This document shows positions 35,287-61,425 of a DNA stretch of 64,000 bases, piece after piece. Location: NCBI GenBank assembly GCA_018000995.1, contig JAGNIU010000006.1, positions 62,001 to 126,000 of the forward strand, in the 5' to 3' direction. The notes beneath the pieces were generated by a model. The model did not search any database and was not told the DNA's origin. It saw only the letters and a program-made list of their open reading frames with translations. How positions within the stretch are numbered: position 1 is the stretch's first letter; the number at the start of each line of letters is the position of its first letter. The position numbers and the translations under genes are program-made. The stretch comes from Bacteroidia bacterium (lineage in GTDB: Bacteria > Bacteroidota > Bacteroidia > B-17B0 > Aurantibacillaceae).

Positions 35287-36801
35287 ATGAAAATAACCCC
35301 TTCCATATTATACGACTATCTCCAATGCCCTCACAAGGTTTGGCGGGATAAGCACGGACCAAAAGAAGAGGAAGTAGTGGAAGATAATCCCTTTGTTCAA
35401 CTGCTTTGGGAAAAAGGAGTTCAACACGAGAAGCAAATTATTTCTGATTTCGGAGAAGATTACGAGGATATAAGTGAAGGAACTCTTGAAGACCGATTAG
35501 TACGAACTAAGAAGGCTCTCAACGAAAAGAAGAAATATATTTATCAAGGAGTAATTCAACATGGAAATCTTTTTGGAATTCCTGATTTGTTGCAATTAAC
35601 TGACTCTGGAAATTATGTGCCAGTGGATATTAAGTCAGGTAGCGGACTTGAAGGAACAGATGAAGAATTTGGAGAAGAGGGAAAGCCAAAAAAACATTAT
35701 GCTGTTCAACTTTCTCTATATGCCGATATTCTCATTAGTTCGGGTCACAGCAAAGAAAAAATAGGCTATGTTATTGATATTAATAAAGACAAAGTAGAAT
35801 ATAATTTAACCGTTCCAATGGGTCCAAAGACTCCGCAGTCTTTTTGGGATTTTTACCTGGAAACAAAAGTTACGGTTGAATCTCTAATTCAAAATACAAG
35901 TTCAAATTCCCCCGCAATGGCTGGAGTTTGCAAGTTATGTTCTTGGCACGATTCGTGCAAGACCTGGGCCAAAAACAACGATGACGCTACGCAACTTTTT
36001 TATGTAGGCCGAACTGTAAGAGATACGCTCCAAAAGGACATAGGCATTTCAACGGTTAAAGGCCTTACAGGTATTTCAACCGCAGACTTATTAGCTCAAA
36101 AGAAAAAGAATAAAGAGTTTCTAAAGGGAATTGGTGATAGCAAATTGAACTCTGCTGTAAAACGTGCAAATATATTTAGCAAGCAACTACCTCCAGTACT
36201 GTATGAGAAAATTGATATTCCATCAGTATCCTATGAGTTATTTTTCGACATTGAGGATGACCCAACGCAAGAGTTCGTTTATCTTCATGGAATTTATGTT
36301 CGGACAAAAGAGAAAAAGGAATTCAAATACTTTGTAACAAAAGACAATTCTCGAAAATCGGAAAAGGAAACTTGGGCAGAGTTCTGGAAATATATTAAGT
36401 CTCTCCCTCCGAATGATTTTGCAGTGTATTATTACAGCCATCATGAAAAGTCCACTTACAAAAAACTTCAAAAAAAATATCCTGATATCATTTCTTCAGA
36501 AGAAGTTGAGGCATTTTTCGAAAACCCAAAGGTCATTGACCTTTATCAAACAGTATTAAAACACACCGATTGGCCAATAAGTTCTTATTCACTTAAAGGG
36601 CTTGCAACTTATTTAGGATTCAAATGGCGTGACGTTACTCCTTCTGGAGCATTATCAATTCAATGGTACAACGAGTACTTAAAGGATTCTGACCCAGCCA
36701 AACTCAACCGCATCCTGGAGTACAACGAGGATGATTGTATCGCCACGATGGTATTGAAAGATAAACTCAATGAAATGAATAATAATATTATTTTAGAATA
36801 A
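35287..36801 (+). CDS. TM0106-type RecB-like nuclease with RNase H-like domain
   Basis: 504 aa. The N-terminal half is a RecB/Cas4-like PD-(D/E)xK nuclease: D100 (GIPDLL), D114-I-K116 (VPVDIKSGSG) and four cysteines C14, C215, C218 and C224 (LQCPHK and CKLCSWHDSC) that likely hold a 4Fe-4S cluster. The C-terminal half (about 310-500) is a YprB-like RNase H/DEDD exonuclease domain starting FFDIEDD (D321, E323) and ending YNEDDC. Many family members continue into an Upf1-like helicase; this one stops here. Its 3' end overlaps the DprA-like gene tail-to-tail by 9 bases. It probably degrades or processes DNA ends; a role in defence is inferred. Confidence 0.85.
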   Translation: MKITPSILYDYLQCPHKVWRDKHGPKEEEVVEDNPFVQLLWEKGVQHEKQIISDFGEDYEDISEGTLEDRLVRTKKALNEKKKYIYQGVIQHGNLFGIPDLLQLTDSGNYVPVDIKSGSGLEGTDEEFGEEGKPKKHYAVQLSLYADILISSGHSKEKIGYVIDINKDKVEYNLTVPMGPKTPQSFWDFYLETKVTVESLIQNTSSNSPAMAGVCKLCSWHDSCKTWAKNNDDATQLFYVGRTVRDTLQKDIGISTVKGLTGISTADLLAQKKKNKEFLKGIGDSKLNSAVKRANIFSKQLPPVLYEKIDIPSVSYELFFDIEDDPTQEFVYLHGIYVRTKEKKEFKYFVTKDNSRKSEKETWAEFWKYIKSLPPNDFAVYYYSHHEKSTYKKLQKKYPDIISSEEVEAFFENPKVIDLYQTVLKHTDWPISSYSLKGLATYLGFKWRDVTPSGALSIQWYNEYLKDSDPAKLNRILEYNEDDCIATMVLKDKLNEMNNNIILE

Positions 36802-37773
36802 TTTGCCATTAAACTCTGAATCAAGAGATGAAATCGCTTTTTCAAATCTTTGGTAATCATCCTTTTTTGAAATTGATATTGCGTTATCAATAAGAATTTT
36901 ATCTGGTTTTAGACCAGTAATTTTAGCAAGACCTGCTATCGTATCATTTAGTATTATTGAATTAGCTTCAAACAACAAGTCTGTTCCACTTTTGTTCAGA
37001 TTGATAACTCCTAACGGTCGATTCAGTAAAGAGAATGCTTTTAATGTATATTTAGAGCCTCCATCAATTTTACTTTGTACTAATATTAATCCTTTTGAAA
37101 GGCCTGCTTGAATTCTACAAGAATCAATAACTTTAAAAGTATCTTCTTTTAAACCACATTCGTATTCACTTAAAATTAACCCGCCATTTTCCAAAACTTT
37201 TTCAGCCATTAACGCTGTTGAAGCTAGTAATGTTTTTGTTTTATTATAATTCAAGCCACCCGCTAGTACACCAACCACATTGCTATGAAGTCCTTTTTCT
37301 CCAGTAATACTTGCCTCGTCAACTCCAATGGCTAATCCATTACAAATAGAATATCCTTTTTCGTGAAAATAAGCTCCAAGTCTTTTTGCTATTTCAATAG
37401 CGATACTATCCGCTTCTCTTGTTCCAATTATGCCCAATGATTTTTGTGCGGCTGCAAGATTTCCTTTGTAAAATAAAACAGAAGGCGGGTCTTTTATTTC
37501 AGAAAGAGTTTTAGGGTATTTGCTATCACTTAAATCGACAAGTTTCACATCATTATCGTGCGATTTTGAAATAGTATCTTTTGAAAGACCAACATACTCT
37601 TCTATCTCTTCATCAGAAATTTTCTTTTTCAAAATCACTAAAGCCTTTTCTATGATTTGATAATGAGATTGATTATCAAATACTCCGTTCAGCCAGAGTT
37701 TTTTTATTGCAACCTCTCCAGCGCCTTTTACCTGACGTAATGCTAATATTGCTATTAAATTGTTATTGCTCAT
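36793..37773 (-). CDS. Divergent DprA-like Rossmann-fold protein
   Basis: 326 aa from the ATG at 37773, which overlaps the stop of the HAD-PRTase gene (TAATG). An HhH-like N-terminus (about 5-40; ALRQVKGAGEVAIKKLW) precedes the DprA/LOG Rossmann fold: IIGTREADS, YSICNGLAIGVDEA, VGVLAGGLNYN, GGLILSEYECG, SCRIQAGLSKGLILV. The family sequence SGLARGID is changed to NGLAIGVD, and RNRIIAGLS to CRIQAGLS, so nucleotide or ssDNA binding may differ from competence DprA, which loads RecA on single strands. It is the last gene of the seven-gene operon. Confidence 0.8.
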   Translation of the reverse strand: MSNNNLIAILALRQVKGAGEVAIKKLWLNGVFDNQSHYQIIEKALVILKKKISDEEIEEYVGLSKDTISKSHDNDVKLVDLSDSKYPKTLSEIKDPPSVLFYKGNLAAAQKSLGIIGTREADSIAIEIAKRLGAYFHEKGYSICNGLAIGVDEASITGEKGLHSNVVGVLAGGLNYNKTKTLLASTALMAEKVLENGGLILSEYECGLKEDTFKVIDSCRIQAGLSKGLILVQSKIDGGSKYTLKAFSLLNRPLGVINLNKSGTDLLFEANSIILNDTIAGLAKITGLKPDKILIDNAISISKKDDYQRFEKAISSLDSEFNGKLF

Positions 37774-39038
37774 TATATAATGTTTTCGGAGTGCCCGCAT
37801 CCATTCCCTTTAAATTGCGGAGGAGTGCAAGAGAAGAATTTTATGCCATCCGATTTTCTTATTTTAATTTGCATTTGCTGGCTGCATTTTGGGCAAACCT
37901 TAATGCTTAGAACTCTTGAAATCATGAAAAACAACGTTACGAATAAAATATTGGTTGCCCCCTTTTTCCTAAGCATATTTACAACTTCATAGGCAGTACC
38001 TCCAGACGTAAACTGGTCATCTATTACAATAATTGATTTTCCATCTAATTCAATCCCATCAATAACGTTTAAATTTTGTGCAATAAAATCTCTGCGTTCT
38101 CGATAGTTAATTCTATTTCGAATACTTCCATCAACGTCATCCAGCCATTTAAATAACTGGACTTTTGGAATTGGACTTTTAATAAGCTCAAAGAAAATTT
38201 TCATTTTATTTGGCGGAGCCGTTGTTGATTTGTCCGAAACATAAGTTATATAATCCCATTTTAAATTAGGAGCAGATTTGAATACGCTTTCCAAATAAAT
38301 CTCAATTGAATGAGATAGCTTACTTAAAGCTTGTATACTTCTATTTTCTCTTTGAAATTCTTTATAATAAAAGGCTATTCCATATTTATCGCATTCTCCA
38401 TCATCTTGTCTGCCTAAGCTTCTAAAAATCGTGAGTGGGCCATCTTTTGTGCTATCGTGTAATCTTATTGCTTGAATTGATTTGATATCGTGAAACACCC
38501 CTTCTGCTGCCCATAAATTTTGCATTGGATTAGCAAGGATATTCAGAATTTGAGCGAACTGTTTCGCAAAATAAGTCGGACCACTTTTTAATTGATGCCA
38601 GGTTTTTCCAATTCCATCTCTTTCATCAACTTCCGTTGTATAATAGAATTGGGTAAGAATGGTTTTAAAATTAAGTGCTCTTCCTAATTCTATGTCAAGC
38701 CATGTGTCCCCAATGATAATAAAATTATCCTTTTCATTTATGTTGTAGCCTTTTTGCATCAGATACTCAATTGTTTTTTTTGAATTGGGTTTATCTGCTA
38801 AGGAAAGCGCAGCTATTCCGAATATTTGTTCGGCAATAGGATTAACGTATTTCGGATGACTATCAGAAATGATAATCGGGGTGTGTCCCTGTTTTATAAC
38901 TTCCTGCACAAACTCTCTTGCCCCTGCAAATGCGGGAATTTTTGAAATGACAGTATCTTCCAAGCCATCTTTCATTGGCTTGAATGACTTTTCAGCTGTA
39001 TTAGTAAGCGTCCCGTCTAAATCAAGTAAAACAATCAT
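37773..39038 (-). CDS. HAD phosphatase - phosphoribosyltransferase - zinc ribbon fusion
   Basis: 421 aa. Residues 1-150 are a HAD-type phosphatase: nucleophile VLLDLDGTLTN, motif II IIISDSHP, motif IV IIGDTWLDIELG. Residues about 220-385 are a type I phosphoribosyltransferase with the PRPP loop SIIVIDDQFTSGGTAYE. The C-terminus (about 387-421) has CPKC and CTPP...GNGCGH, a topoisomerase-like zinc ribbon. The combination suggests handling of a nucleotide or PRPP-derived metabolite. It is locked between the helicase gene (7 bases upstream) and the DprA-like gene (1-base overlap). DprA-PRTase pairs near helicases are, as I recall, a recurrent defence-island theme. Confidence 0.82.
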   Translation of the reverse strand: MIVLLDLDGTLTNTAEKSFKPMKDGLEDTVISKIPAFAGAREFVQEVIKQGHTPIIISDSHPKYVNPIAEQIFGIAALSLADKPNSKKTIEYLMQKGYNINEKDNFIIIGDTWLDIELGRALNFKTILTQFYYTTEVDERDGIGKTWHQLKSGPTYFAKQFAQILNILANPMQNLWAAEGVFHDIKSIQAIRLHDSTKDGPLTIFRSLGRQDDGECDKYGIAFYYKEFQRENRSIQALSKLSHSIEIYLESVFKSAPNLKWDYITYVSDKSTTAPPNKMKIFFELIKSPIPKVQLFKWLDDVDGSIRNRINYRERRDFIAQNLNVIDGIELDGKSIIVIDDQFTSGGTAYEVVNMLRKKGATNILFVTLFFMISRVLSIKVCPKCSQQMQIKIRKSDGIKFFSCTPPQFKGNGCGHSENII

Positions 39039-39045
39039 TTAATTA

Positions 39046-41136
39046 TTATTTCAAACTTATTAAATCTGATTTCACTCCAGTACCAAAAACTTTAAGAACG
39101 CTAATTGCTCTGGTGATGGCTACGTAAATTAAGGAACGCTCACTGTTCAAGTAATCCTCCTTCTCTTGCACTTCCATTTCATCAAACTTCGCAAAGTACA
39201 ATGGGGAGGTTCGATTATTTACATCGCTTAAAATAACGGCCTTAAACTCTAAGCCTTTTAGACTATGAAAAGTAGAAAGAACAACACCTTTGCCCTCTGG
39301 TGAAGCTGACGAAGTAACATCCTGGTAAGGTATCTTCATTTGATGTAAACTATTTTTCACTTCTTTAACGGCTTCCCTTGTTCTACATCCAATTGCAATA
39401 TCATTGAAGTTAAAACCTTGCTCTTTTAATTCATTTATGAGTTTAACAATAGCATCTACTTCTTCATTCTTAGTTTTAAATACCTTGTAAGTTGGGTGCT
39501 CACCATGGAATAATGACAAGTATCCATTCAACTTCTCAGTTTCTCCGTCAAAGTCATCGTAATTAATTCCTTTTACTGCGCTTAATGCAAGGCGCTTTAT
39601 CTCTTCTGAGGTTCTATAGTTGATGCGAAGCTGTTTACTTCTGGTTCCTCGTACAGAAATACCCGCAGCCGAGAAGTTTATTTTACGAGCGTAGATTCTT
39701 TGGTATGGGTCTCCAACAAGAAAAATGTCATTCTCCTTTTCCTCGACCAGTGAGCGCAAAAATCTCAACTCAATATTTGATAAATCTTGAACTTCATCAG
39801 CAATCACATGCTTAAATGGTTTTGTATTTTGAGATTTGTTATACGATGAAACAATATTATATAGCTCCGCTCTGTCCATATAGCTGTTTGTTTTTTTCTT
39901 TGTATTGTATATCTCTATCAACTTCCAGAAATCCATTTTTTGTTTTCTCGAAATAGGTTTTCCTCTTCCAATCCTGCTCACATTTAAATACGAATCAATT
40001 GATTGAATGTCATTAAACAAAATCACCGATTGATATTCAGCTGCCAGAAATGCTGTATCAAACTCAGAAAGATTTTGTTCCAGAATTTCGTCCCAAAGTT
40101 CGTAGCTGGTTTTTGAGTTCGGTGTATCCAGAATGCGAGTTTCCTTTTCTATCAATTTCGCTTCCTTGGCAATTTCTCGAACAAGAGCATCAATATTTGT
40201 TATTTGTGCCTTAGACTCGTCAATAGAAAGCTTCTTGGCAAGTGAAATTAAATTCACAGTCAGAGCATTTGTGAATGTAGTAAAGACCGTTTTGCGTTTA
40301 TCACTGTCAGTCAAATTGGATAGATGCTTCAGGCGGTGCAAAGCAACAACAGTCTTTCCTGTTCCAGCCCCACCCGTTACTTTAACCGAACCCTTAAAAT
40401 TTGATTCAACCAATTTCCGTTGCGAAGGATGTAAGAAGATTTGCCATTTACTTAATTCACCATTTATTATTTCAGTCATTAATTCATCGTCAACCTGAAC
40501 AAAGTTTCTTTGGTTGTTAACGCTGTTAATTTGTTCTTCAACATTTGTTGATTTGGATTTTCCTTCGTTGATTTCTGCAATCATCAATTCTATATTTGCT
40601 CCTTCGGATATATAGAATAGATTTTCAAACGTATCTGCTGGTAAGAATTTTTCCGCTTGCTCTAACTCAGATAAGTCCCGTATTGACCGAACAAGATTCA
40701 TAGATTGTGATGGCACTCCAATTGCGAGTAAATTATCATCGGTACAGTCGGCAAACAAACTATGTTTTTTAACAGCCGCAGTAACTGGTTTTACCATTTC
40801 TTCTTCTGGAGCAGTAAATATTTGGGCAGTTTGTGTGTTCTCGTTCCATAAAAAAACTTTATTCTTCGCCCAATCCATAGCCTCGTCATGATTATCTACC
40901 CAAAGCATGTAGTAGCTATCACCTGATTGCGGCACTTTAATTATCGCTCTATATTTTTGGTCAATCCTTGCAGTTCTCAAGGTTGGGTCCTTAAATGTGC
41001 TTATTGGTTCCAAATGGATTGCCTCCGATTTAGAATTCTCTCTAAACTTTTTCTGAAAGTCAAGTACTTTTTTTTGAATTGCTTTTGGCAAGTCAATTAT
41101 TTGCTCGAAGCATTTATCATGAACGTATAATTTCAT
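39046..41136 (-). CDS. UvrD/Rep-type SF1 helicase with RelE-like N-terminal domain
   Basis: 696 aa. Residues about 1-100 (KLYVHDKCFEQIIDLPKAI, TLRTARIDQKYRAIIK, YYMLWVDNHDEAMDWA) resemble a RelE/ParE toxin fold of the kind fused to or paired with UvrD-like helicases. The helicase motor follows: motif I VTGGAGTGKTVV (253-264), Walker B IADEVQDLS, motif III GDPYQRIYA, motif IV QLRINYRTS, motif V STFHSLKGLEF and motif VI YVAITRA. Its start overlaps the stop of the 2104-aa gene by one base. Whether the RelE-like part is an active RNase or a nucleic-acid-binding platform is unknown. Confidence 0.85.
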   Translation of the reverse strand: MKLYVHDKCFEQIIDLPKAIQKKVLDFQKKFRENSKSEAIHLEPISTFKDPTLRTARIDQKYRAIIKVPQSGDSYYMLWVDNHDEAMDWAKNKVFLWNENTQTAQIFTAPEEEMVKPVTAAVKKHSLFADCTDDNLLAIGVPSQSMNLVRSIRDLSELEQAEKFLPADTFENLFYISEGANIELMIAEINEGKSKSTNVEEQINSVNNQRNFVQVDDELMTEIINGELSKWQIFLHPSQRKLVESNFKGSVKVTGGAGTGKTVVALHRLKHLSNLTDSDKRKTVFTTFTNALTVNLISLAKKLSIDESKAQITNIDALVREIAKEAKLIEKETRILDTPNSKTSYELWDEILEQNLSEFDTAFLAAEYQSVILFNDIQSIDSYLNVSRIGRGKPISRKQKMDFWKLIEIYNTKKKTNSYMDRAELYNIVSSYNKSQNTKPFKHVIADEVQDLSNIELRFLRSLVEEKENDIFLVGDPYQRIYARKINFSAAGISVRGTRSKQLRINYRTSEEIKRLALSAVKGINYDDFDGETEKLNGYLSLFHGEHPTYKVFKTKNEEVDAIVKLINELKEQGFNFNDIAIGCRTREAVKEVKNSLHQMKIPYQDVTSSASPEGKGVVLSTFHSLKGLEFKAVILSDVNNRTSPLYFAKFDEMEVQEKEDYLNSERSLIYVAITRAISVLKVFGTGVKSDLISLK

Positions 41137-44100
41137 TATGTAATATCTTTAATATTAAAGTCTTCTAATTTTATTTCTGAATATCCTGCTAGTTCGAATA
41201 GTTTTTTATCAGCTTCTGATTGGGGACTAATAAAAATCTTTTTATTCTCAAATCCAAGCATCGCTTCAGCAAAAACCCCATTATGCTCAATAAAGAATCC
41301 TCCTTCTTTCTTAAAGAAAATATTCTTGTCAATTAATTGCTTTACAATTTGATGAACAGATTTGTCATGGTACTGCAAGCAATCGTACTTATTGTCATCT
41401 TGAGTGTCCTGACTTTGCTCTTCGGTCGCAATCTCAGTTTTCAGAATAGAATTTGCTTGAATCAAATTATAAAGCTGCCAGAAATTTTCCCATTTGTTCT
41501 TCTCCAAATTTCCATTAACCTGATTAATCCAAAGGCTTGCTTTTACATCAAGGTCCAAAACTTTAATGGCAATTTTTAATGTAGCAAAATCTGCCCCTGA
41601 AAAGAGCTCTGGGAAAACATAAAATTTACCCTGTGACTTTATTTTTGCTTGCATTCCATTATCCAGCTTCGTTGATGAAGAAAGTGTTTTTTCAATATCA
41701 ACCTCATCAACCGATGGGTTGGCGAAATTTGATTGGAACAATGATAACAGCAAACCTATTTTAGGTTCCTTGTTTGATTCTTCTAATGGATTGCACAGGA
41801 CCCAAATCAATCGCTCAAATGAATTCTTTTTTTCAAAGAGTGAGCTCTTATAGCTTTTCCAATAGGGAACGACTTCATATTTTGAAATTGTACTTTTGTA
41901 TTTTGTTCTATCAAGGAATAAATTATCACGCTTGAACTGTTTAGACTCAGCATCATTTTCCTTTTCAGGCGCATCAAATCTTTCCACATCAGACCAAGAT
42001 AAAGTCCATGAGATTTTATTTCCTGATTCAATTATTGCAATACGTTTCTGCAAGTCATTATAAAATCTATTATTTTCCTTTGTTGCGTGAAATGTATAAC
42101 CATCCAGATAAATCGCAATTCCTTTTGCGTATGAAAGCACAGCTTCATCTGTTACTGCAATTCCATTCCTTTCAACTGCAACTAAGGTGATGTAAAAGTC
42201 CGTTCTTGTTTTGTATTTAACGCCTTCAGCAGGCCCCAATTCAAATTGTGGACGAATTACATACGAATAACCTAATTCTCCTGAAGTAACTTTAAATTTA
42301 TAGTTTACTATACCTTCCTGGATAAACTCTTCGAAATGGAATCCAGAATCGGTTTTTGCAAGAACAAAGTTTTTTAAACTTCTTATAAATCTTTCTTCCA
42401 ATTCACTTTCCTCAATCTGCCCATTTCCAGATAGAGACCCTAACCCAGAGGTGTAATTTTCCCAAGCACTTGATTTATCTACGATTTTTTTGAAGAGCTT
42501 TTCCGCCCAGGTTCTGCTTAACTCATCTTGTATATGCTGGTTCGAGTAAGTAAAGATACAGCGATAACAACCATCTTTGCCCTTGTATTGACAACCACAA
42601 TCTTTAATTGCATGATATGCCTTTGTAATCACCTCGGTAAATTCAATCGGATTAAATAGTTTTTCGAGATAACCAGTTCCACCAGGGATATTATCATGTA
42701 TTACAAGGTACTTATCAAAACGACTGTTTTTTGCATTGAATTCTGAGTAATTAATAAAGCTTAAATGCTGCGGATTTCCTTTGTAATATTTCTTTAAACC
42801 AAGTTCAAGTCCAGCTTTAAACATGTTTACTTGCGACTCACTTTCCAGGTCTTGAACTGGCAGTAGAACTTTTAGTGCTTCAGTTTTTATTTCCTTAAAC
42901 AAATAAACCTCCTCAAAAATCTCATCGCTTTTTCCATCATATAATTTGTCTTTGTGTTTGCAATAACCAAAATGGAATTTGAAATTCTTATCGAATCTTG
43001 CTCTGTGAGGAGAAGATGTACTTTTACCACAATACTTGCAAGTAACAAACCCATGGTAAGGAATATCCTCATGTTGGTTTATTGTTATTTTGTTCGCATC
43101 TGCTGCACTGGATAAGCCTAGATTTACTTCAGTAATGTCAACGTTTTTTACATACTCAATTCCGAAAGGAATATCCTTCATACCCCATGCTCCTTGAAAG
43201 GTATTGTAATCAAATTTAACATGCTTAGATACTTTATAAAGATTTGCCTTGCGCTCGTCACTGCTGTCATCAAGAGTGGATTTCTCTCTTGTATTAACTG
43301 ATTTAACACTGTTAATTCGAACAAAAATATGTTGATTCTTTGCAGATGACCAAGAGCTGTCACCGCATTTAGGACAGAATGACTCGGTTGACACAGCACT
43401 ATCAGCAATGTGGTCGCAGTTAGAACAAAATCGTTTTCGCAACAGTGTTCCAGGGTCCTTCCAATCAAAGGTATTTAATCCAGAGATTGCGAACTTAAAT
43501 CCTTGCGAGTAAAAATGATTGTCTGGAGCAAATTCCCTTATTGCAACACTTGAAGACCTTACAATTTCAAATTGTTTATCGGTTGGAATATTAGCACTCG
43601 CTTTTGCTGGATTTGATTTAACCCAGGCGTTAAGTGTAACTCCTGTTTCTGGGAAAGCATAGTTAGGCAATAAACCAACATTTGTAAGATGTTCCAAAAC
43701 AGAACGTTTGTCGATTAATCTCTTCAAGCCCCATAGTGCTTTTTTCTCTCCTTCAAGTATTTTTCTTTCTTCGTCCGTTTCTGGGAGATTGTTGCTTTTT
43801 ATTATATTATCAATTTCCTTTCTCTTTTCATGAATGTATTCGTACTCCTTTTTTATTTTAACGAAGACTAATTTGATTCGAGAATAGAATGATTCATCGC
43901 CTAAAATCGAGCGCAAATTATCAAGCACCTTTGTATCTTCTAGGTCTGGAGTATAGAAATCAATAAAACGGTTTAATAAACGAGATTCGTTTGCTTTTAC
44001 AAAAGAAATAATTCTATTAGACAGGAAGTCTGGAGAACTCAAGTCTGTATTTAATAAACGAAGGGAAATTAGTCTTCCTGGTATGGAATGATTTCTTGGA

Positions 44101-47100: not shown

Positions 47101-47450
47101 TCAAGAATAGGGTATTGGAAACATTCTGTTTTACCAGAAGAAGTACCAGTTGTGATTAATGTTGCTTGAGGTTTGTGACCTACTTCTGTATTTAATCTTT
47201 GGAATGCTTTATACTGATGGTGATACGGAGGAAAATTGGGTTTTATATCGAGCGGAATAATCTCTGATTGTGTTGCGGTTACAAAAGGGAGTTTTAATGA
47301 AACATACGGCCCTTTAAATATTCCTTCTTCATTGTTGTTTATGAAATTATAAAATGCTTCATGCACTAACTTATCCTTAAAGCTAAATGTAGCTTTAAGA
47401 TATTCAAGTATTGAATGTTTAACCTCGTATGCCTGCTGTAATGGTAACAT
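41136..47450 (-). CDS. Giant DEAD/DEAH helicase with DUF1998 and nuclease-like C-terminus (DrmA-DrmB/DruE-like)
   Basis: 2104 aa. SF2 helicase core: motif I TGTSSGKT (101-108), Ib YPMNALASDQ, II DELH (236-239), III SAT (273-275), V ATSTLEMGID and VI QRVGRAGR (about 1050). Zinc-like CxxC pairs occur near 480, 590, 930 and 1340. A DUF1998 module follows (IHDNIPGGTGY about 1585, then CGCQYKGKDGCYRC about 1620). The last 500 residues contain TDFYI (D1751) and YLDGYTFH (D1783, H1788) followed by NDLQKR, a DUF559/Vsr-like endonuclease pattern. DISARM encodes the helicase and DUF1998 parts separately as DrmA and DrmB; Druantia DruE combines them. The gene is 2 bases after the methylase gene. Confidence 0.85.
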   Translation of the reverse strand: MLPLQQAYEVKHSILEYLKATFSFKDKLVHEAFYNFINNNEEGIFKGPYVSLKLPFVTATQSEIIPLDIKPNFPPYHHQYKAFQRLNTEVGHKPQATLITTGTSSGKTECFQYPILDYCYKNLNRSGIKVIILYPMNALASDQAKRLAEAIWSDSRIKGKVTAGLFIGEGKDKKKYPKEMGENHVIENRDSIVDSPPDILLTNFKMLDYALMRNNYHNLWNFNLEDSSLLQFLVLDELHTYDGAQGTDVANLIRRLKLKLTIPKGQLCAIGTSATIGSGADSKKLLTTYAEKVFGEEFDEESIITENRLEVDAFFDLSNDSLDKYIPRQIGLLESRLKENETYIDYIKRQKRLWQLPETIESVSLGVELKKLKLVKDLISLTSKNIKALGVLLKELADCNEEFRRLPEWDQENELNPREEVINSILALIAEAKVGEGRKFPFLYLQIQMWVRELSGVLRELNEQPLFTWKDKVGDKYEPKALPSYYCRECGASGWLGIKDDNKNHFDSEPNKVYEYFFSNHKNIYLVNTPNHQHIEEYEPTNTIDDFLHPVDLTILEKGGKEAFKIHAVRKVTDAKSRHVCPECNTENTLGIIGTRIATLSSITVSQVLASDLDPRTEKYRKILAFTNSVQDAAHQAGFIEARNYRFTFRSSLQKVINNCGPQINLAQLQEEFIKYWKANSDESGGNNEQAYYYRFFPADFKSKADINTDYRTGNNFTPEFKKEFDERMRWETSVEFGFNAILGRTLEKSGASAIKFDEEKLKAVFPEMKEWLLQNNLSPIIEVLFLPFINGILHRVRTRGGVDNEYLSKFRENGLQLWDLNWMRDNRHFLNRFFGARTRLPKLLTTEPHGRGLLDTTFTKTNNWYRSYFLKSFILASPHHAIINDFYEKLFEVFVKVGIMNKAGTEENYNYAIIPAVILVENKVKRHECDVCASSLSVADSDVLTSLTNCLDYTCKTGSYKPSPKTKPNYYQLVYNRNRSPRIYSAEHTGILERKDREQKEFDFKERPNFNSLNTIVATSTLEMGIDIGTLNTAINNSVPPLTSNFLQRVGRAGRSSGSALITNFAQSKAHDLFYYEEPLDMMEGEIATPGCYLEAKDILFRHFFAYCLDNWTSENPRNHSIPGRLISLRLLNTDLSSPDFLSNRIISFVKANESRLLNRFIDFYTPDLEDTKVLDNLRSILGDESFYSRIKLVFVKIKKEYEYIHEKRKEIDNIIKSNNLPETDEERKILEGEKKALWGLKRLIDKRSVLEHLTNVGLLPNYAFPETGVTLNAWVKSNPAKASANIPTDKQFEIVRSSSVAIREFAPDNHFYSQGFKFAISGLNTFDWKDPGTLLRKRFCSNCDHIADSAVSTESFCPKCGDSSWSSAKNQHIFVRINSVKSVNTREKSTLDDSSDERKANLYKVSKHVKFDYNTFQGAWGMKDIPFGIEYVKNVDITEVNLGLSSAADANKITINQHEDIPYHGFVTCKYCGKSTSSPHRARFDKNFKFHFGYCKHKDKLYDGKSDEIFEEVYLFKEIKTEALKVLLPVQDLESESQVNMFKAGLELGLKKYYKGNPQHLSFINYSEFNAKNSRFDKYLVIHDNIPGGTGYLEKLFNPIEFTEVITKAYHAIKDCGCQYKGKDGCYRCIFTYSNQHIQDELSRTWAEKLFKKIVDKSSAWENYTSGLGSLSGNGQIEESELEERFIRSLKNFVLAKTDSGFHFEEFIQEGIVNYKFKVTSGELGYSYVIRPQFELGPAEGVKYKTRTDFYITLVAVERNGIAVTDEAVLSYAKGIAIYLDGYTFHATKENNRFYNDLQKRIAIIESGNKISWTLSWSDVERFDAPEKENDAESKQFKRDNLFLDRTKYKSTISKYEVVPYWKSYKSSLFEKKNSFERLIWVLCNPLEESNKEPKIGLLLSLFQSNFANPSVDEVDIEKTLSSSTKLDNGMQAKIKSQGKFYVFPELFSGADFATLKIAIKVLDLDVKASLWINQVNGNLEKNKWENFWQLYNLIQANSILKTEIATEEQSQDTQDDNKYDCLQYHDKSVHQIVKQLIDKNIFFKKEGGFFIEHNGVFAEAMLGFENKKIFISPQSEADKKLFELAGYSEIKLEDFNIKDIT

Positions 47451-47452
47451 AA

Positions 47453-50400
47453 TTATTTGTCCTTAAGCTTTTTTTCAAAGTGCTTCCAAGCGTTTGTGTA
47501 ATCCTCAACTCTGTTATATTTAGAAAATGGTGCGACAAAAGTGATTTCCTTGCCATTAAATTGCTCGCTTTCTGTTATTTTATAAGTGTATTTTTCTCCT
47601 GCTTTTAAACATTTGATTTGTTCTAACTCAGTTCTTGTAACTCCAACCCCTCTTAGTGTCTTACTGCTTGGTGTAAACACAATTTTCCCACTTGTATCGT
47701 ACCAAGTATCATCTTCGAACTTTTTCAATATTGAAAAATTAAGAAGATAAATTTGTACTAGCTCTTCAAGCGTTAAACCAAAATTCATAGCAACCAATAC
47801 ATCAATCTCAACCAATGCTTGTCTTCTCGTTAATAGATTTCGAAATGGAGTTGATGCAGTCCAGTTCTTCGAAACATTGGAAATATCTTCCAAGCCAGAT
47901 TTCTCACACGACCATGAATCCTTAATAAATTCATCCTTAAATAATTCTTCCCAATAAGGAGCGTAGCACTTTTGAATACAATTAAGCCTTAGAACACGTA
48001 AGAATATTTCCGATTTAAATTTCGATTCTATTTTAAACGGTAATGGGTCAATTCTGCTACCGTAAATATTTGGGGAGCCAATAGTTTTAATACAAAAATC
48101 GTAAAGAATAGAAGTGGTCAAACTTAATATGTTGTTTAGAATTTCAAAATCCTTATGAAATGCAGAAAGAATCGAATTTATATGCCCCATCTTTGGAGCT
48201 AATAGCGCTGGTTGTAAGGTCCTCTCACCATCAACGTCAACCATCTTTCGAAAACCAACTCTAAAGGAATTTATTTCCTTTGATTCAAATGGAAATTTCT
48301 TTCCAGGAATTAGGTTCGTTCTTGGAAGAGTCAAATCCTCGTTTAACAGTAAGTCATTAAAATCATAATCTGAACCTTCTTTACTTACAATCTGTGGCGA
48401 TTTAAAAAGTGGATAGGAAACAGAAATCATTGGTCCCGTAAGTACGAGCTCATATTTATTTATATCGGGTGAAATTGTTTTTCTTTCAAGTTCGTCTTCG
48501 GAAATTGAAGATGTTTCATGAAAACCCTCGCTATAGTTAACGCCCTTGTCAGATATTCGTTCTTTAGTTTCACTAAGTTTTTTCAAGACTTGAATTACTT
48601 CACTAGATTGAATGTTTACGAGCTTAACTACCTTGTAGGATTCTCCTTTTTCAAAAAGGTCTGCAAGGAGTTGAAGTGATTCTTCATTGTGCTTTATTAG
48701 TCTATTTACATTTCCTTTTAAATTCCATATCCAATCACCTTCTGTGTTTTTTACAATTATTGCGTTATCAACTGTTAGACTAAAAGTTGTTTCAAATACT
48801 TCTATCTGATTTGGGTGCAACAAATTGCTAATTGAAATAAATGAAATATTTTCATTTCTCTTGCCGTATACATTAACTCCATAATCTAATCTGTGGTGAA
48901 CCTCCTGAAATAACTTAAGTATATTTTTAAAATGGAAATGATATTTTAATCTATCATAAATATCTTTTCTAAGAGCTTGCCCGTTTGAATCTTCATATAC
49001 ACTCTCAGGATGAATTAATCCCATCCATCCATTGGGACCTAAAAGGTCAAACCCATTTACTAAAATACATTTGTAAAGATTTGTTTGTTGCCCTAAAAGA
49101 GTAGAATATGAATGTGTGCCATTCATGAATGATGCTGTGCAGCTTGTCTCAATTATTTCTTGTTCATATAAATTCTTTAATCCCTTATCAGAGAAAAAGC
49201 CAGTTTTCAAATTTCGAATTTGTGGAGCAGAAACACTTCTAATTGCAATTTCTGGAAATTTCTCTGATAAAATTCCTTTCTCTTCGAATGCTACTTTTAA
49301 CCAAGGGGGATTCCCCGCCATTAAATCAAAACCACCTCTTTCCCAAAAGACTTCTAGAAATTCTAGTTGTGGATGAAAGAAGAAATACTTCTTTGACAAC
49401 TCAGCAACAATTTTCAGCCTTTGATTTTCATCAAATAAGTCTTTCCTTTCCGCATATTCAACAACTGCTGCTTCAAACACCTTTGGTGCGTCATCAGTTT
49501 CCTCTCCTAAGGCAAGCTGTTCACCACCTGTATAAAATAATTTTTCTTGTAAACCAGCTTGTATCTTCTCTTCTGTTTCATTTGAAACAATTTTATCAAT
49601 ATCTAATTGCAAAATATTACCAATATCACTCCAGTATTGAGCTCTATTTGGTAATTCATCGGCTTGGCGTACATCCCAAAACCAAAGACTGCACCAGTAA
49701 TCCATTACCATTTTCAACTTGAAATATGGTGCGCTATGTCTATTTCTTTGGTCAGCAAGTTTTTCCTTCTCATCATAGCTTTGCATTTGCAATATACCTT
49801 GCTCGTTCTTTTTTGTTGCCCCAAAAATGTTTTGTCTTGAACCCGTTTGTAAATTGATATTGCGTTGAAAACGGTAATACTCCGCAAGCAGTTCATCAAT
49901 AGTATTGGAAATTACTTTTACCCTTTCAAATTCAGTTTTTGTTAGTGGCTTAATCCATTCTTTCTTCCAAGTTGCAACACCTTTTGTAAAAAGGGAGTTT
50001 TCTTCCTTTAATAATTTAATACCAGCAGAAGCAACCATGCTCTTGTCAGGCAGCAGAAAGTGGTAAACCTCATTTTGTTTCCGATTTGTTTTAATTTTAT
50101 CGAAATCGGAATTAGGTTTAAACTCCAATTGGCGTGGGGCTTTTTCCCACCATTCTTTTTTTGCAAGTGCTTTTTTGTCTTTTCCTTTTCCAGATTTAAT
50201 CACTTCGTACTCTTCAATTAAATCCTTCTCTGCATAAACTTTTAACCAAGCACCCACTACGGCATTTCCAACGCAAATACGGTTACTGAAAAAAGGTGTT
50301 TCCATATCCCTATGGATTACGTTTAGCCACAAGGATAATTTCCCTAATTCAATTGCTGTTGGATTTAAATCGACACCATAAACATTGTGAGTTGCTATAT

Positions 50401-52294
50401 ACGCTTTTACTTTTTGTAATTCTTCTTTGTATTGGTCTGGTTCAATTTTCCATTCCTTTCTTCCAGAGTCACGCAATTCTTTTTGACGATAGCTTGTATA
50501 GGCTTCGGCCAACTGGTTAATCATTTCGTTATGGAATGCTGCTGCACCCATTGCAGGCTCCAACAATTTCAAGTCAAGTAATTCCTGCGCCTTCATTTCG
50601 CCTTTCTCTAGTTTTTCGAGAATGGGTTTGAGTGTGTATTTAACAGTACAACGAGTTAAAACCTCTGGAGTATAATATGAAGCTGATTTTTGTCGGTCAC
50701 GTCCACTCAGGCGATAAACAAAAGTTCCTTTTTTAAGAATTACATCCTGATGATTTTCATCTTTTAATATTTCATCTTCTTTAAAGTCATCTCTTCTACT
50801 CCGAGGAACCAGATACGTTCCATCTTCTGGTTTGTCCTTTTTGTGAACCTCAATGTAATCTTGCTCAGCATAAAAACCACGGTAAGCCAGTAAACTTTCA
50901 TAAACACTTCCTAATTGGTTAATTCCAAGGTTTGCATAAGAGATTCTTCCTCTAGCTTTATTGCGTTGCTGTTTTGAAAGCGAAAGGCGGCAAATAATAT
51001 CTTGCCAAACCTTATTTCGGAATTTTACTTTGTGTAAATGGTGCAGCTTTCGGTCATCAAAAATTGGTGAGTCAATGTGTCGAACTTTGAAACTCTTGTT
51101 GTGTCCATTTTCCTTTTCACGATAACCAGAACTCAAGACATGAAACAATTTACTCAATGATTCATGAAAGAATTCTCCGTTCAAACTGTTTTCAGAATAC
51201 AATGGAACCTGCTCAAGGTCCCTCAGCATTTCTAATGAATATCCCTTATTGTAAGTGGAGTCATTGCTTGGTAAAATATCTAAGTCTTCACGGCTTTCTG
51301 CATAGAATATAAAAAGAAGGCGGTAAATAATTCTTAAGCAATCATCCTTAATTTCTTGCTCAAATTTATCATCGGTTTCATCAAAGTCTTCATGCTTTTT
51401 TTCCTTTAGGTAGAATAGCGCTTCATTGGCCAGGGCTTCTACAGCATGAATAATGCCTTCCTTTAGGTCTTTCGTGACCTCGTAGGCGCTTTTGTGACTG
51501 TCCTCGTCCAATTGGTCCAAAAGAACCATATTGCTATCTGGAGCCAGCGTTTCCTTTCCTACAAGAAAATAGAATAAAGCGTAATAGTTTGCGTTGCGGT
51601 TTGCCGTTGCTTCAGAGAAAAGCTCCTCCAGTTCGAACTGCAAGTAACTCCCTCGGAACCATTTTTCTTGTTCAAGTAAAAATAATCCATTACCTGCAAG
51701 CAATAAAATATACTTCGGTCTTTGATGCGGCTCCAATAAAAACAGTTGTGAAACGGCTTTATTAATAATTACAGGGGATATTTTTTGGTCCTTTGGAGTC
51801 GTAAAAACCCTTTCCCATTGTAAACGGTGATATTTTTGAGCAGGGTTTGCCTGTTCTTCATCCTCCACATTATATCGCTGCTCAAATAAACCATCTGGCT
51901 CATTATCGTCCTCTTTAATGAGAGACTGCATTTCCATTACCATCAAATGAGGTTGGTCTCCACGGTAAAGAATATGCCTTACTGGAATTACTTGCTCTTC
52001 GGTGAAATGAAAAAGATGGTCGTATTGCGTGTGTGCAGCATCATAACCTAATGCACTTAAAAGATGTGTATGGAATTGATGCGTTTCGAATATTTTATCT
52101 TTCGTTCTGAGCCTCCCTTCAATGTAAAGCTCTTTGTATCGGAAAAACTTTTCCTTTAGTGGAGTAATTTTTTTATTGAATTCCTTTACGTCTTCTGCAT
52201 TGTATCCTGTTTTGGATAACACTTTTGATGTAAAGTCCTCATCAAAATAATTTGAAGAAAAATAATCACCTGTATTTCGTATAAACTTTAACAT
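47453..52294 (-). CDS. Large Eco57I/PglX-like N6-adenine DNA methyltransferase (DrmMI-like)
   Basis: 1613 aa. SAM-binding motif I is LLEPAMGAAAF near residue 580, followed by VYGVDLNPTAIELGKLSLW; catalytic motif IV is AGNPPWLKVAFEEKG near 995. The gap of more than 400 residues between them is long. The last 400 residues are probably target recognition. The N-terminal 300 residues contain HLMVMEMQSLIKE, where a type IIG nuclease would have ExK; the Lys is missing, so I see no working nuclease. The role would be marking host DNA with N6-methyladenine, as PglX in BREX or DrmMI in class 1 DISARM. The gene lies 6 bases after the SNF2 gene. Confidence 0.87.
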   Translation of the reverse strand: MLKFIRNTGDYFSSNYFDEDFTSKVLSKTGYNAEDVKEFNKKITPLKEKFFRYKELYIEGRLRTKDKIFETHQFHTHLLSALGYDAAHTQYDHLFHFTEEQVIPVRHILYRGDQPHLMVMEMQSLIKEDDNEPDGLFEQRYNVEDEEQANPAQKYHRLQWERVFTTPKDQKISPVIINKAVSQLFLLEPHQRPKYILLLAGNGLFLLEQEKWFRGSYLQFELEELFSEATANRNANYYALFYFLVGKETLAPDSNMVLLDQLDEDSHKSAYEVTKDLKEGIIHAVEALANEALFYLKEKKHEDFDETDDKFEQEIKDDCLRIIYRLLFIFYAESREDLDILPSNDSTYNKGYSLEMLRDLEQVPLYSENSLNGEFFHESLSKLFHVLSSGYREKENGHNKSFKVRHIDSPIFDDRKLHHLHKVKFRNKVWQDIICRLSLSKQQRNKARGRISYANLGINQLGSVYESLLAYRGFYAEQDYIEVHKKDKPEDGTYLVPRSRRDDFKEDEILKDENHQDVILKKGTFVYRLSGRDRQKSASYYTPEVLTRCTVKYTLKPILEKLEKGEMKAQELLDLKLLEPAMGAAAFHNEMINQLAEAYTSYRQKELRDSGRKEWKIEPDQYKEELQKVKAYIATHNVYGVDLNPTAIELGKLSLWLNVIHRDMETPFFSNRICVGNAVVGAWLKVYAEKDLIEEYEVIKSGKGKDKKALAKKEWWEKAPRQLEFKPNSDFDKIKTNRKQNEVYHFLLPDKSMVASAGIKLLKEENSLFTKGVATWKKEWIKPLTKTEFERVKVISNTIDELLAEYYRFQRNINLQTGSRQNIFGATKKNEQGILQMQSYDEKEKLADQRNRHSAPYFKLKMVMDYWCSLWFWDVRQADELPNRAQYWSDIGNILQLDIDKIVSNETEEKIQAGLQEKLFYTGGEQLALGEETDDAPKVFEAAVVEYAERKDLFDENQRLKIVAELSKKYFFFHPQLEFLEVFWERGGFDLMAGNPPWLKVAFEEKGILSEKFPEIAIRSVSAPQIRNLKTGFFSDKGLKNLYEQEIIETSCTASFMNGTHSYSTLLGQQTNLYKCILVNGFDLLGPNGWMGLIHPESVYEDSNGQALRKDIYDRLKYHFHFKNILKLFQEVHHRLDYGVNVYGKRNENISFISISNLLHPNQIEVFETTFSLTVDNAIIVKNTEGDWIWNLKGNVNRLIKHNEESLQLLADLFEKGESYKVVKLVNIQSSEVIQVLKKLSETKERISDKGVNYSEGFHETSSISEDELERKTISPDINKYELVLTGPMISVSYPLFKSPQIVSKEGSDYDFNDLLLNEDLTLPRTNLIPGKKFPFESKEINSFRVGFRKMVDVDGERTLQPALLAPKMGHINSILSAFHKDFEILNNILSLTTSILYDFCIKTIGSPNIYGSRIDPLPFKIESKFKSEIFLRVLRLNCIQKCYAPYWEELFKDEFIKDSWSCEKSGLEDISNVSKNWTASTPFRNLLTRRQALVEIDVLVAMNFGLTLEELVQIYLLNFSILKKFEDDTWYDTSGKIVFTPSSKTLRGVGVTRTELEQIKCLKAGEKYTYKITESEQFNGKEITFVAPFSKYNRVEDYTNAWKHFEKKLKDK

Positions 52295-52300
52295 TCCTAA

Positions 52301-55147
52301 TTACGAATTATAAAACACTGCTAATACTTTTAAATAAGGCTCTCCATGCAATGACGTGAGGTCATTATAGTATTGGCTTGATGTGCTTAGTATTGTTTCA
52401 ATTTCTCTTTGTCTGTTGTCCTTAATACTGGACCAATAATTTCCTCCAACTCTTTCGCTGAAATCCATTTCTAATTGTTCCATTGCAGCCTTATGCCAAT
52501 TTTCAATCTTTGTTTTGTAATCATCCAACTTCTTTTCCATTTTACCTTCAAGCTTTTGTTGTTCTTCTTGCATGTGATGGGCCGCCCATAGAACAGCATC
52601 AGGCAAAATAGTTTGTAGATTACCAATTTCTTCCTCAGTGATAGTTTCTGTGTGCATCGTTTCTCTCATCTTAAATTCATCAATAAAATTGCTCAATGAG
52701 AAAGTCTTTCTAAGAATGCTACCATCCCATTTTATACCTACAACAAGAAAATCTACAAGAACTGGCTGACTAAGATTGTTTGAAACTTGCCCTTGGAAAA
52801 CAAACCAGGCACTTTTTGCAGGAAATATTTTTGATTTAGAAACAAGTGCAACATCTTTATTAACGCTGGCTTCTAACTTGGTCATATAATATCGTATTAC
52901 AGGATGCAATTCATACAAAACCTGAAACTCAGCCCACTCACCATGTTTTTTCCTCGCTTCATCAATTGATTTTTGAACAAGAGTTTTGTCAAGAGAAAGT
53001 TTGTAAAGACTATTCACTTTCGGTTTTGACTCTGGTGGCAAATCGAACAATATTTGATTAAGCTCCTTTGTATTTATTACCTCAAGGTAATCATCACTCA
53101 CGGTAACTTCATTTTTGCTCAATTGATTTCCAGAACTCAACTGCTCAAATAATTCTTTATAGAAACCAAAATCATTATTGTAAATGGATAGTGGTTTTTC
53201 AAAGGGCTCATCAGTGATAGTAACTTCTGTTGTGTCGCACATTGTGCTAAAATCAAAGCCTCCTTCTTGTTTCTTTTCCAAAAACTCTTCATCTTGATTC
53301 AAAAAAGCATTTTCAACTTGGTTTTCTTCCTGTTCTGCTTCATACAGCTTCATTACAGAGCCTGCGTCACCTAGTGTTTTATAAACAACCTCTTCTTTCT
53401 TCGTTATGCGCTCTATAATATGCAAGTCTGTCTTCAAGCCTTTTATATTTGATTCAGCAATGATATAATGTACAAATGGCGTTTTCTTCTGACCATATCG
53501 GTCAATTCGGCCATTTCTTTGTTCAAGTGTTATGAGGGACCACGGAATATCATAGTTGAACATTCTATTGCAATAGTAATGTAGATTCACACCTTGAGAA
53601 CCTGCATCGGAACACAATAAAATTTTTACTGTGCTATCCTGTTTGCCAAAATCATCAATTATATCTTGTTGTTCAGTATCTGTTAAGCCACCGTGAAAAA
53701 ACTGAACAGATTCTTCTTTTAGTTTAAAATCATAAGCCAGATTTTCTCGCAAGTAAGTTAGCGTATCAATCCTCTCAGCAAAAACCACAAAGCGGTCATC
53801 ATTTGTTTTTCCAGACCATCCAAGCTCAAGTAATGTTTTTTTCAATTGCTGATACTTACTATCAGATTTCGATTTTAGAATTTTCTCAAGCTTACTTTTT
53901 AGTTCGTTTAAAATTCCAAGATTTTCTTCGAACGCATCTTCCTCAGATTTATTTGCTTCAACTTTTTCAATCCTTCGCTTTATGCTTTCAAGCGCTGCTT
54001 GGGGTGAAGACATAAATGCTTTAAAGATTCCAATTGAAAAAAGGAAATCATCTTTTGGTTTCCCGCTTTTGTACGAAGCAATCGCTTTGAATTTAAGTTC
54101 TTGTTGGTATTGCAAGAAATCAATTTCATCAGTGCTTAGGTCGCATGATTCACGAACTACTTTTCTTTCAGAAAAATTAGCACGAACTGCTTCGTCTTCG
54201 ATGTCATTTTTAAATCTTCTTACATAATATGGCTCAACATGACTTTTGTCATAGTCGCCATTTCGAGGAATGGCGGTTGGTTCAATCATGTTAATCAAAT
54301 TGGCGAAGTTTTCCTTTTTACCATTATGCGGAGTAGCAGAAGTAAGAATCAATGACTCGCATTTTTTTGAAATGAATTGAGCTAAGTCACCTTTCTGACT
54401 CTTATCATTTGCAACTGTATGACACTCATCAATTACTACCACATCCCAGCGAGATTTCTCTAAGTAATGTCTGAATTTCGCATTTCTTTTTAGTGTATCA
54501 ATCGAAATGATTGTTTTGTCGTAGTAATCAAATGGATTTTTATTCGCTGGTAACTGCGATTTAATTTTTGCAATTCCTTCTGAATCTAAACGAACCAAAG
54601 GAATTGCAAAGCGATTCCAAATCTCTTGCTGAAATTGAGCAAGAATTGATTTTGGAGCAAGGACCATAATTCGTTTCCCTTTACCTCTCTTAATCATTTC
54701 AGTAAGGAAAATTCCAACTTCGATTGTTTTTCCCAAGCCGACTCCGTCAGCTATAAGCAAACGTGGGCGTGGAAGTTGCAATGCTTTTAAAGTAGGCGTG
54801 AGCTGATAATCTGCGGCATTAATCGCTGCTTTATTTGCAATAGTAATTTTCTCAGAAAAAATTGAAGAGTTTCTGATTTGTGTTTCCAAAAATAATTTTG
54901 TTTTCCTGTAACCACTATCGTTATCAGGAACCAAAGAAGTATGATTCGGGTCAACAGGTTTTATATCCGTATCAAGACTTGAATCAAATGCAAAGCGTTT
55001 ACCTTTTACAAGCTCACTTATTCCTTCAGCATCAATTAAAACAGAACCATCGTGATTTACATTGGTTCCTGTAATAATAAAATCCTCTCCTCTCGTTGAT
55101 ATTCGTTGTCCTATTGTAAGATTCATTCTCCCTAAATTTTTAATCAT
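52301..55147 (-). CDS. SNF2-like SF2 helicase (DrmD-like)
   Basis: 948 aa, with M8 (55126) as an alternative start. Motif I is ADGVGLGKTIEV (133-144), Ia LAPKSILAQFQQE, II DECH (230-233), III TSATPHNGK, then the helicase-C half with QGVNLHYYCNRMFNYDIPW, and motif VI QRNGRIDRYGQ near 540. The C-terminal 350 residues are helical with charged coiled-coil-like stretches. Layout and length match DrmD of class 1 DISARM and BrxHII of BREX. It overlaps the XRE gene by 8 bases and is followed by the methylase, the order drmD-drmMI seen in DISARM. Confidence 0.87.
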   Translation of the reverse strand: MIKNLGRMNLTIGQRISTRGEDFIITGTNVNHDGSVLIDAEGISELVKGKRFAFDSSLDTDIKPVDPNHTSLVPDNDSGYRKTKLFLETQIRNSSIFSEKITIANKAAINAADYQLTPTLKALQLPRPRLLIADGVGLGKTIEVGIFLTEMIKRGKGKRIMVLAPKSILAQFQQEIWNRFAIPLVRLDSEGIAKIKSQLPANKNPFDYYDKTIISIDTLKRNAKFRHYLEKSRWDVVVIDECHTVANDKSQKGDLAQFISKKCESLILTSATPHNGKKENFANLINMIEPTAIPRNGDYDKSHVEPYYVRRFKNDIEDEAVRANFSERKVVRESCDLSTDEIDFLQYQQELKFKAIASYKSGKPKDDFLFSIGIFKAFMSSPQAALESIKRRIEKVEANKSEEDAFEENLGILNELKSKLEKILKSKSDSKYQQLKKTLLELGWSGKTNDDRFVVFAERIDTLTYLRENLAYDFKLKEESVQFFHGGLTDTEQQDIIDDFGKQDSTVKILLCSDAGSQGVNLHYYCNRMFNYDIPWSLITLEQRNGRIDRYGQKKTPFVHYIIAESNIKGLKTDLHIIERITKKEEVVYKTLGDAGSVMKLYEAEQEENQVENAFLNQDEEFLEKKQEGGFDFSTMCDTTEVTITDEPFEKPLSIYNNDFGFYKELFEQLSSGNQLSKNEVTVSDDYLEVINTKELNQILFDLPPESKPKVNSLYKLSLDKTLVQKSIDEARKKHGEWAEFQVLYELHPVIRYYMTKLEASVNKDVALVSKSKIFPAKSAWFVFQGQVSNNLSQPVLVDFLVVGIKWDGSILRKTFSLSNFIDEFKMRETMHTETITEEEIGNLQTILPDAVLWAAHHMQEEQQKLEGKMEKKLDDYKTKIENWHKAAMEQLEMDFSERVGGNYWSSIKDNRQREIETILSTSSQYYNDLTSLHGEPYLKVLAVFYNS

Positions 55148-55424
55148 TCAATTCACTGAGTGCTTTTCTGAGGCCTTTTTTACCTGAAGGGTCATTGCCA
55201 ACAAGGCTTATTACCTTATCTGCATACCAAAGCGTCAGTAACGAATCTGATTCAACATCAAAATATTTAGCAAGTTTTTCTATCTGCTCCTTTCCTAAAA
55301 ATCGCTCACCATGTTCAACCTTGCTTACCATGGCTGTATCGCATTCTAAATGTGCTGCAACTTGGCGTAGAAGTAGTTTTTTGCGCTCACGAATTTCCTT
55401 GATTTTCCTTCCTAATTGGTTCAT
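55140..55424 (-). CDS. XRE-family regulator of the defence operon
   Basis: 94 aa; the HTH_3 domain lies at about 5-62 (LGRKIKEIRERKKLLLRQVAAHLECDTAMVSKVEHGERF, in segments) with a short helical tail. First gene of the leftward seven-gene operon and overlapping the SNF2 gene by 8 bases, so it is translated with it. It most likely autoregulates and may control the divergent operon through the inverted repeat at 55441-55464. Confidence 0.88.
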   Translation of the reverse strand: MNQLGRKIKEIRERKKLLLRQVAAHLECDTAMVSKVEHGERFLGKEQIEKLAKYFDVESDSLLTLWYADKVISLVGNDPSGKKGLRKALSELND

Positions 55425-55440
55425 CGCTATTTGTATTTAA

Positions 55441-55464
55441 TTTGACTTGTCAGAATGTGTCAAA
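55441..55464. promoter_or_regulatory. Operator candidate in divergent defence promoter
   Basis: TTTGAC-N12-GTCAAA inverted repeat in the 105-base space between the two divergent defence operons. TAACTTTA at 55491-55498 is close to the Bacteroidota -7 consensus for the rightward operon. One XRE dimer here could control both directions. Confidence 0.55.
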
Positions 55465-61408: not shown

Positions 61409-61425
61409 TTCAGAGGTCCCGAGCG
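61409..61425. other. attR: 17-bp direct repeat at tRNA-Cys 3' end
   Basis: Identical to 23287-23303; its last 12 bases are the 3' end of the intact tRNA-Cys. Integration therefore preserves the tRNA at the right side. The remaining tRNA bases (61426-61484) belong to the host chromosome. Confidence 0.88.

Follow-up and report, generated by a model that had tools for sequence, protein, structure and literature searches.

An XRE-headed ARMADA Type II operon of a Bacteroidia bacterium, with a ShosTA-like cassette behind it on a predicted tRNA-Cys integrative element

ARMADA Type II was described in 2025, with phage tests in E. coli (Bell et al. 2025, PMC12458937). It is defined by a BrxHII/RapA-like SNF2 helicase, a PglX-like methylase, a YprA helicase and a RelE-UvrD protein (ArmA to ArmD), encoded in strict order. 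In E. coli all four arm genes are required, protection against phages is non-abortive and infected cells survive; the systems are carried on tRNA-integrated elements, and a Vsr-like nuclease has been placed at the C-terminus of ArmC in general (PMC12458937). ShosTA (PDB 8zvb, 9vzo, 9w2p; PMC9122126) is a pair of neighbouring genes for a HAD-PRTase-zinc protein, ShosT, and a DprA-like protein, ShosA. In E. coli, the DprA-PRTase pair of P2-like phages gives protection from T7 and lambda (PMC9122126). As summarized in a review, ShosT is a phosphoribosyltransferase and pyrophosphatase which upsets purine pools, while ShosA binds DNA and counteracts ShosT (PMC12593503, citing Pu et al. 2025); the same review names T7 Gp0.7 as the trigger of the module. 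Class 1 DISARM comprises drmD, drmMI, drmA, drmB and drmC, and contains an SNF2 helicase, a methylase and a YprA helicase related to those of the locus analyzed here. DruE of Druantia is the PADLOC helicase family nearest to the ArmC found here.

We analyzed a stretch of 64,000 nucleotides from a Bacteroidia bacterium (GCA_018000995.1, contig JAGNIU010000006.1), referred to as the window. A preliminary description had presented a seven-gene operon with a DISARM-like core, completed by three new genes. The ORFs and the junction sequence confirmed seven co-directional, near-contiguous genes on the minus strand (55424..36793), with neighbouring junctions between -8 and +7 bp (Table 1). The domain calls were also confirmed: Pfam, PADLOC and NCBIfam supported XRE, SNF2, Eco57I methylase, DEAD/Helicase_C/MZB, UvrD, HAD/PRTase and DprA. 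The RelE part of armD was the exception, as no Pfam or NCBIfam model matched it, and this call comes from alignment to ArmD homologues and from published annotation. We consider it highly probable that the locus is an XRE-headed ARMADA II operon followed by a ShosTA cassette in one transcription unit, carried by a 38-kb element integrated at tRNA-Cys.

Table 1. Coordinates of the operon genes, the candidate operator and the features of the mobile element in the window.
Feature	Position	Strand	Remarks
Left direct repeat TTCAGAGGTCCCGAGCG	23287..23303	+	17 bp, attachment-site-like; element left end
Tyrosine integrase	23511..24782	+	just inside left repeat; Pfam Phage_integrase, SAM_5, Arm-DNA-bind_5
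shosA-like antitoxin	36793..37773	-	DprA/SMF protein, 326 aa from ATG 37773; ORF reaches ATG 37800
shosT-like toxin	37773..39038	-	HAD + phosphoribosyltransferase + C4 zinc ribbon, 421 aa
armD	39046..41136	-	RelE-like N-terminus + UvrD/GajB-like SF1 helicase, 696 aa
armC	41136..47450	-	YprA-family SF2 helicase with MZB/DUF1998 domain, 2104 aa; Pfam DEAD, Helicase_C, MZB
armB	47453..52294	-	Eco57I/PglX-like DNA methyltransferase, 1613 aa, NPPW motif
armA	52301..55147	-	SNF2/RapA (BrxHII-like) helicase, 948 aa
XRE/HTH_31 regulator	55140..55424	-	94 aa, operon gene 1; Pfam HTH_31 36 bits
Candidate operator	55441..55464	.	palindrome TTTGAC-N12-GTCAAA, just upstream of XRE ATG
Right copy of direct repeat	61409..61425	+	17 bp; covers tRNA-Cys 3' end; element right end
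tRNA-Cys	61413-61484	-	3' end inside right repeat

The start codons are uncertain at two genes, armA and shosA. The XRE gene overlaps armA by 8 bp, or is separated from it by 13 bp if the internal armA ATG at 55126 is used; the latter start is probable, as it matches that of the nearest relative (L004). The sequence gave gaps of 6 bp between armA and armB and 2 bp between armB and armC, an overlap of 1 bp (TAATG) between armC and armD, and a gap of 7 bp between armD and shosT. The two cassette genes overlap by 1 bp (TAATG) if the DprA start is at 37773, or by 28 bp from the ATG at 37800. The seven genes are probably cotranscribed. Five of them, XRE-armABCD, keep their order in one other genome, the nearest relative (L004/G444), at 70-86% identity, and the four-gene colinear order is found in distant phyla at about 30-40% identity. 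Therefore the order of the operon is not due to chance.

The XRE orthologue of L004 is 81% identical and occupies the equivalent position. It is preceded by the same palindrome, TTTGAC-N12-GTCAAA, with equal spacing, and the XRE protein may control the operon via this site. Scans for the Bacteroidetes promoter motif and for sigma-70 promoters gave matches below chance expectation and near background, respectively. The ARMADA start is adjoined by a divergent four-gene operon (55530-61316, plus strand) encoding, in this order, a 352-aa protein without family match, an SF1 helicase of 1113 aa that resembles MkoA of Mokosh (428 bits in PADLOC), a 275-aa protein which weakly matches a winged helix, and a 188-aa protein without Pfam match. 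At the other end, a convergent gene for a TM0106-family RecB-like nuclease with an RNase H domain (35287-36801, plus strand) overlaps the 3' end of shosA by 9 bp.

In content and order the four large genes agree with ARMADA II, and we assign the SNF2, methylase, YprA/DUF1998 and RelE-UvrD genes to armABCD of this type. The numbering of an E. coli plasmid homologue (L045) exactly reproduces the residues mutated in E. coli, namely ArmA K136/D236, ArmB G605/N971, ArmC K110/D234 and ArmD K266/D454 (PMC12458937). Alignment to L045 showed that all eight are kept in the window proteins, as K140 and D240 of ArmA, G583 and N995 of ArmB, K107 and D236 of ArmC, and K261 and D447 of ArmD. The identities of window ArmA, ArmB, ArmC and ArmD to those of L045 were 35, 38, 32 and 36%, respectively. 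ArmB matched PADLOC REase_MTase_IIG PDLC03614 from end to end (1483 bits), and ArmC carries the helicase and DUF1998/MZB on a single chain (Pfam MZB 42 bits, residues 1547-1632). Window ArmC is placed in ARMADA II by the match of the operon as a whole. Colinear full-length homologues were found in E. coli ARMADA II, other Bacteroidota classes, cyanobacteria, alphaproteobacteria and actinobacteria, and armD was present in 518 of 5426 E. coli genomes. Since the order and the eight residues match ARMADA II, RelE-UvrD is a defining core gene of this type, linked to it nearly everywhere, rather than one of three additions.

The window and E. coli systems thus have in common the four proteins, their strict order, the eight mutated residues and a tRNA-integrated element. 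They differ in the extra leading XRE gene and the appended ShosTA of the window, in protein sequence (32-38% identity), in the Bacteroidota origin of the window, and in its element being located at tRNA-Cys with a different integrase.

The C-terminal region of window ArmC probably carries the predicted Vsr-like nuclease. It contains the conserved block RTDFY...IAIYLDGY-H; this region had no Pfam match, and the PDB profile search gave only chance matches to lamins. The AlphaFold model of the ArmC C-terminus was too poor for use (mean pLDDT 47.2).

The last two genes, described earlier as new, are attributed by their products to ShosTA, a known module which also moves independently of ARMADA. 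As in known ShosTA, PRTase-domain and DprA-like proteins are encoded by adjacent genes and the catalytic motifs are shared. PADLOC matched the HAD-PRTase-Zn protein to ShosT (30 bits) and the DprA protein to ShosA (135 bits). The shosA product is a clear relative of the solved ShosA structure 9vzo (E 5e-20) and is 35% identical to Pf-phage ShosA. The single-sequence identity of window ShosT to structurally solved ShosT was very weak, and only about 20-25% to dprA-linked and annotated ShosT relatives; its assignment is based on profile comparison and on its operon partner. In hhalign, a 3-row ShosT profile aligned with Pf-phage ShosT from the HAD domain to the zinc ribbon (probability 99.9, E 6e-33, 371 columns). 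The motifs DxDxT, DDxxTxGxT and CPxC were conserved, with DLDGT and DDQFTSGGT aligned with dprA-linked homologues. The AlphaFold model of ShosT was too poor for use (pLDDT 32.9).

Searches for HAD-PRTase homologues covered plasmid and phage collections. They recovered genes beside dprA and without ARMADA in Sinorhizobium, Bradyrhizobium, phage phiOH2 and Pseudomonas phage PfAC02a (L048, L049, L051, L052), the pair of the last being annotated as ShosT and ShosA. One more match, on a Bradyrhizobium septentrionale plasmid, was a short ORF near transposases without dprA, and a ShosT profile scan of IMG/VR gave no matches. The order is shosT-shosA in the window and in Pf phage, whereas dprA comes first in rhizobial plasmids and phiOH2. 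Unlike known ShosTA, the window pair forms the operon tail of ARMADA.

Relatives of ArmC were counted at a strict threshold (E <= 1e-80) and were found in the own genome and 9 others of the phylum set (395 genomes), 1 other of the order set (87 genomes), 4 others of the class set (395 genomes) and 3 of 399 Flavobacterium genomes, one of them already counted. A full-length ShosT match was present in one of the 17 ARMADA-bearing genomes, that of the window. In L004/G444, ShosTA was absent within about 8 kb downstream of armABCD, and the seven-gene set did not recur among the 17 genomes searched. Because ShosT was found in only one of these genomes, we regard ShosTA as a passenger or optional module. 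ARMADA II and ShosTA joined on one mobile element is a new combination of a known core and a known module.

Two further loci had other arrangements. Directly upstream of an ArmC/ArmD-like pair at L037 (G344:C2, 5050-17055), the place of armA and armB is taken by a pPIWI_RE protein of 821 aa and by a protein of 1042 aa that has a marginal DEAD match. This locus may combine ARMADA with a pPIWI-RE module. On a Cylindrospermopsis plasmid (L071) the ARMADA order is permuted, with YprA and UvrD genes ahead of SNF2 and methylase genes.

We also compared ARMADA operons of the Bacteroidia class, with ArmC 48-84% identical to that of the window. In seven of the eight loci where the armB|armC junction is fully visible, it contained a co-directional insert, of six kinds in all; the sample is small and partly composed of related genomes. 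The gap was 373 bp in L004/G444 (a 123-aa ORF with no family), 2.1 kb in L003/G142 and L054/G586 (AbiEi-AbiEii), 7.6 kb in L002 (a TmtA-like, that is Tiamat-like, protein and an SF1 helicase), 4.4 kb in L058/G974 (a 241-aa ORF and two GmrSD), 12.3 kb in L056/G496 (a 246-aa ORF, two TmtA-like proteins and an SF1 helicase) and 2.4 kb in L060/G954 (258-aa and 65-aa ORFs and AlbA_2). Two contigs start inside this gap, with the end of an SF1 helicase (L059) and a DUF4407 protein (L062), each abutting armC. The window is the exception, as its junction is empty and ShosTA is located behind armD instead. ArmC identity did not predict the insert: the N-terminal 1240 residues of ArmC share 84% identity between the window and L004, and the junction contents differ. 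In distant relatives (E. coli, Microvirga, Martelella, Tsukamurella) the junction was mostly closed; the exceptions were one 185-aa ORF in Nostoc and a 207-bp gap in Pseudanabaena. The main text of PMC12458937 mentions neither an armB-armC cassette nor Bacteroidota, and its supplementary files could still name linked cassettes.

Two Flavobacterium loci (L055:3666-7946 and L063:1039-7261) are near-identical through armD and wholly different further downstream. By this comparison, the zone after armD appears as a second variable zone.

The repeats flanking the operon delimit an element of about 38.1 kb, which carries the ARMADA-ShosTA operon together with HipA and the divergent Mokosh-like genes. 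It is similar to the E. coli elements in which ARMADA is integrated at tRNA genes (PMC12458937). In G444, ARMADA is flanked by a homologous integrase and by a tRNA-Cys that has a 15-bp repeat of its own, the two lying about 30.4 kb apart; this integrase is 49% identical to that of the window and is in the equivalent position. A clean empty site was sought in relatives and none was obtained, the orientation of their tRNA-Cys relative to the flanking aminotransferase gene being different from that in the window. Beside the integrase, a HipA-family kinase gene (24784-26417, minus strand) is overlapped by a 114-aa ORF, the two forming a possible HipAB pair inside the element. The window also encodes a DUF932 protein (29011-29961).

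The DISARM-like core proposed earlier was right in part: the operon is DISARM-related, has a one-piece helicase-DUF1998 protein, lacks drmC and carries extra genes. As a new variant of DISARM class 1, with drmD, drmMI, a fused drmAB and new genes, it would fit the PADLOC matches of the SNF2 protein to DrmD (332 bits) and of the methylase to DrmMI (179 bits), and ARMADA itself is related to DISARM. We find this very unlikely, as the curated DrmD cut-off was missed (359 vs 610 bits), the methylase matched a different family at 1483 bits, and the giant protein scored 335 bits with DruE and 69 bits with DrmA. Compared with DISARM class 1, helicase and DUF1998 are not encoded by separate drmA and drmB but lie on one chain, RelE-UvrD is added, and Pfam and PADLOC gave no PLD-nuclease match for drmC among the operon genes. 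We therefore rejected DISARM membership; ARMADA II accounts for all four genes, including RelE-UvrD. The DruE match could instead point to a Druantia subtype, since DruE3 was the best PADLOC family of the giant protein. This is extremely improbable: ArmC of E. coli ARMADA scores alike against DruE3 (348 bits), and the companion genes are those of ARMADA, with no PADLOC match to DruH or other Druantia companions among the operon genes. Druantia membership was likewise rejected.

A different question is whether all seven genes form one integrated system, as the tight coupling had been taken to imply. ShosTA would then serve ARMADA as an effector or guard arm, and either a block of ARMADA or a phage-induced shut-off of operon expression would release it. 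The 7-bp and 1-bp junctions leave no terminator space between armD and shosT, and other toxin-antitoxin or defence cassettes are equally tight inside related Bacteroidia operons; because of the latter, cassettes may be selected for coupling. We hold one integrated system to be unlikely nonetheless, since ShosTA is absent at every other ARMADA locus examined (full-length ShosT in 0 of 16 other ARMADA-bearing genomes), is active alone elsewhere, and E. coli ARMADA protects without it (PMC12458937). The statement that the last three genes are never linked to the first four elsewhere is true of ShosTA among the genomes searched and untrue of RelE-UvrD. The full set is unique among the 17 ARMADA genomes; both of its halves had already been named.

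Under the preferred reading, an ARMADA II operon with an appended ShosTA cassette, ARMADA would act as a direct, non-abortive layer. ArmB, a probable adenine methylase, would most likely mark self or sense target DNA, ArmA and ArmC would load onto invading DNA and process it in ATP-driven steps, and the C-terminal nuclease region of ArmC would cut it; ArmD is also required in E. coli. ShosTA would be a separate second layer, in which activated ShosT would disturb the purine pool and damage DNA, with ShosA restraining it. We infer that ShosTA is a backup or addiction module and not an ARMADA subunit.

In summary, the claimed new system is removed, as both halves have names and need not be chased as unknown. 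The new points are the ARMADA-ShosTA combination, the armB|armC inserts in the Bacteroidia class, and the cargo of the tRNA-Cys element together with a related element in the nearest carrier. ARMADA II is hereby extended to Bacteroidota mobile elements at tRNA-Cys. The recurring cassette junction is what specialists would wish to follow up: varied inserts at one fixed position suggest that an ARMADA operon is built as a chassis in which the second-layer module can be exchanged. This is relevant to the question of why toxin-antitoxin pairs are found in multi-gene defence operons. We put forward, tentatively and as a minority view, that Bacteroidia ARMADA II is a platform with an exchangeable slot, at armB|armC or behind armD as in the window, where each operon would carry one of many unrelated toxin-antitoxin or defence cassettes under its own promoter as a safeguard for cases in which ARMADA is overcome or loses its expression, window ShosTA being one such cassette.
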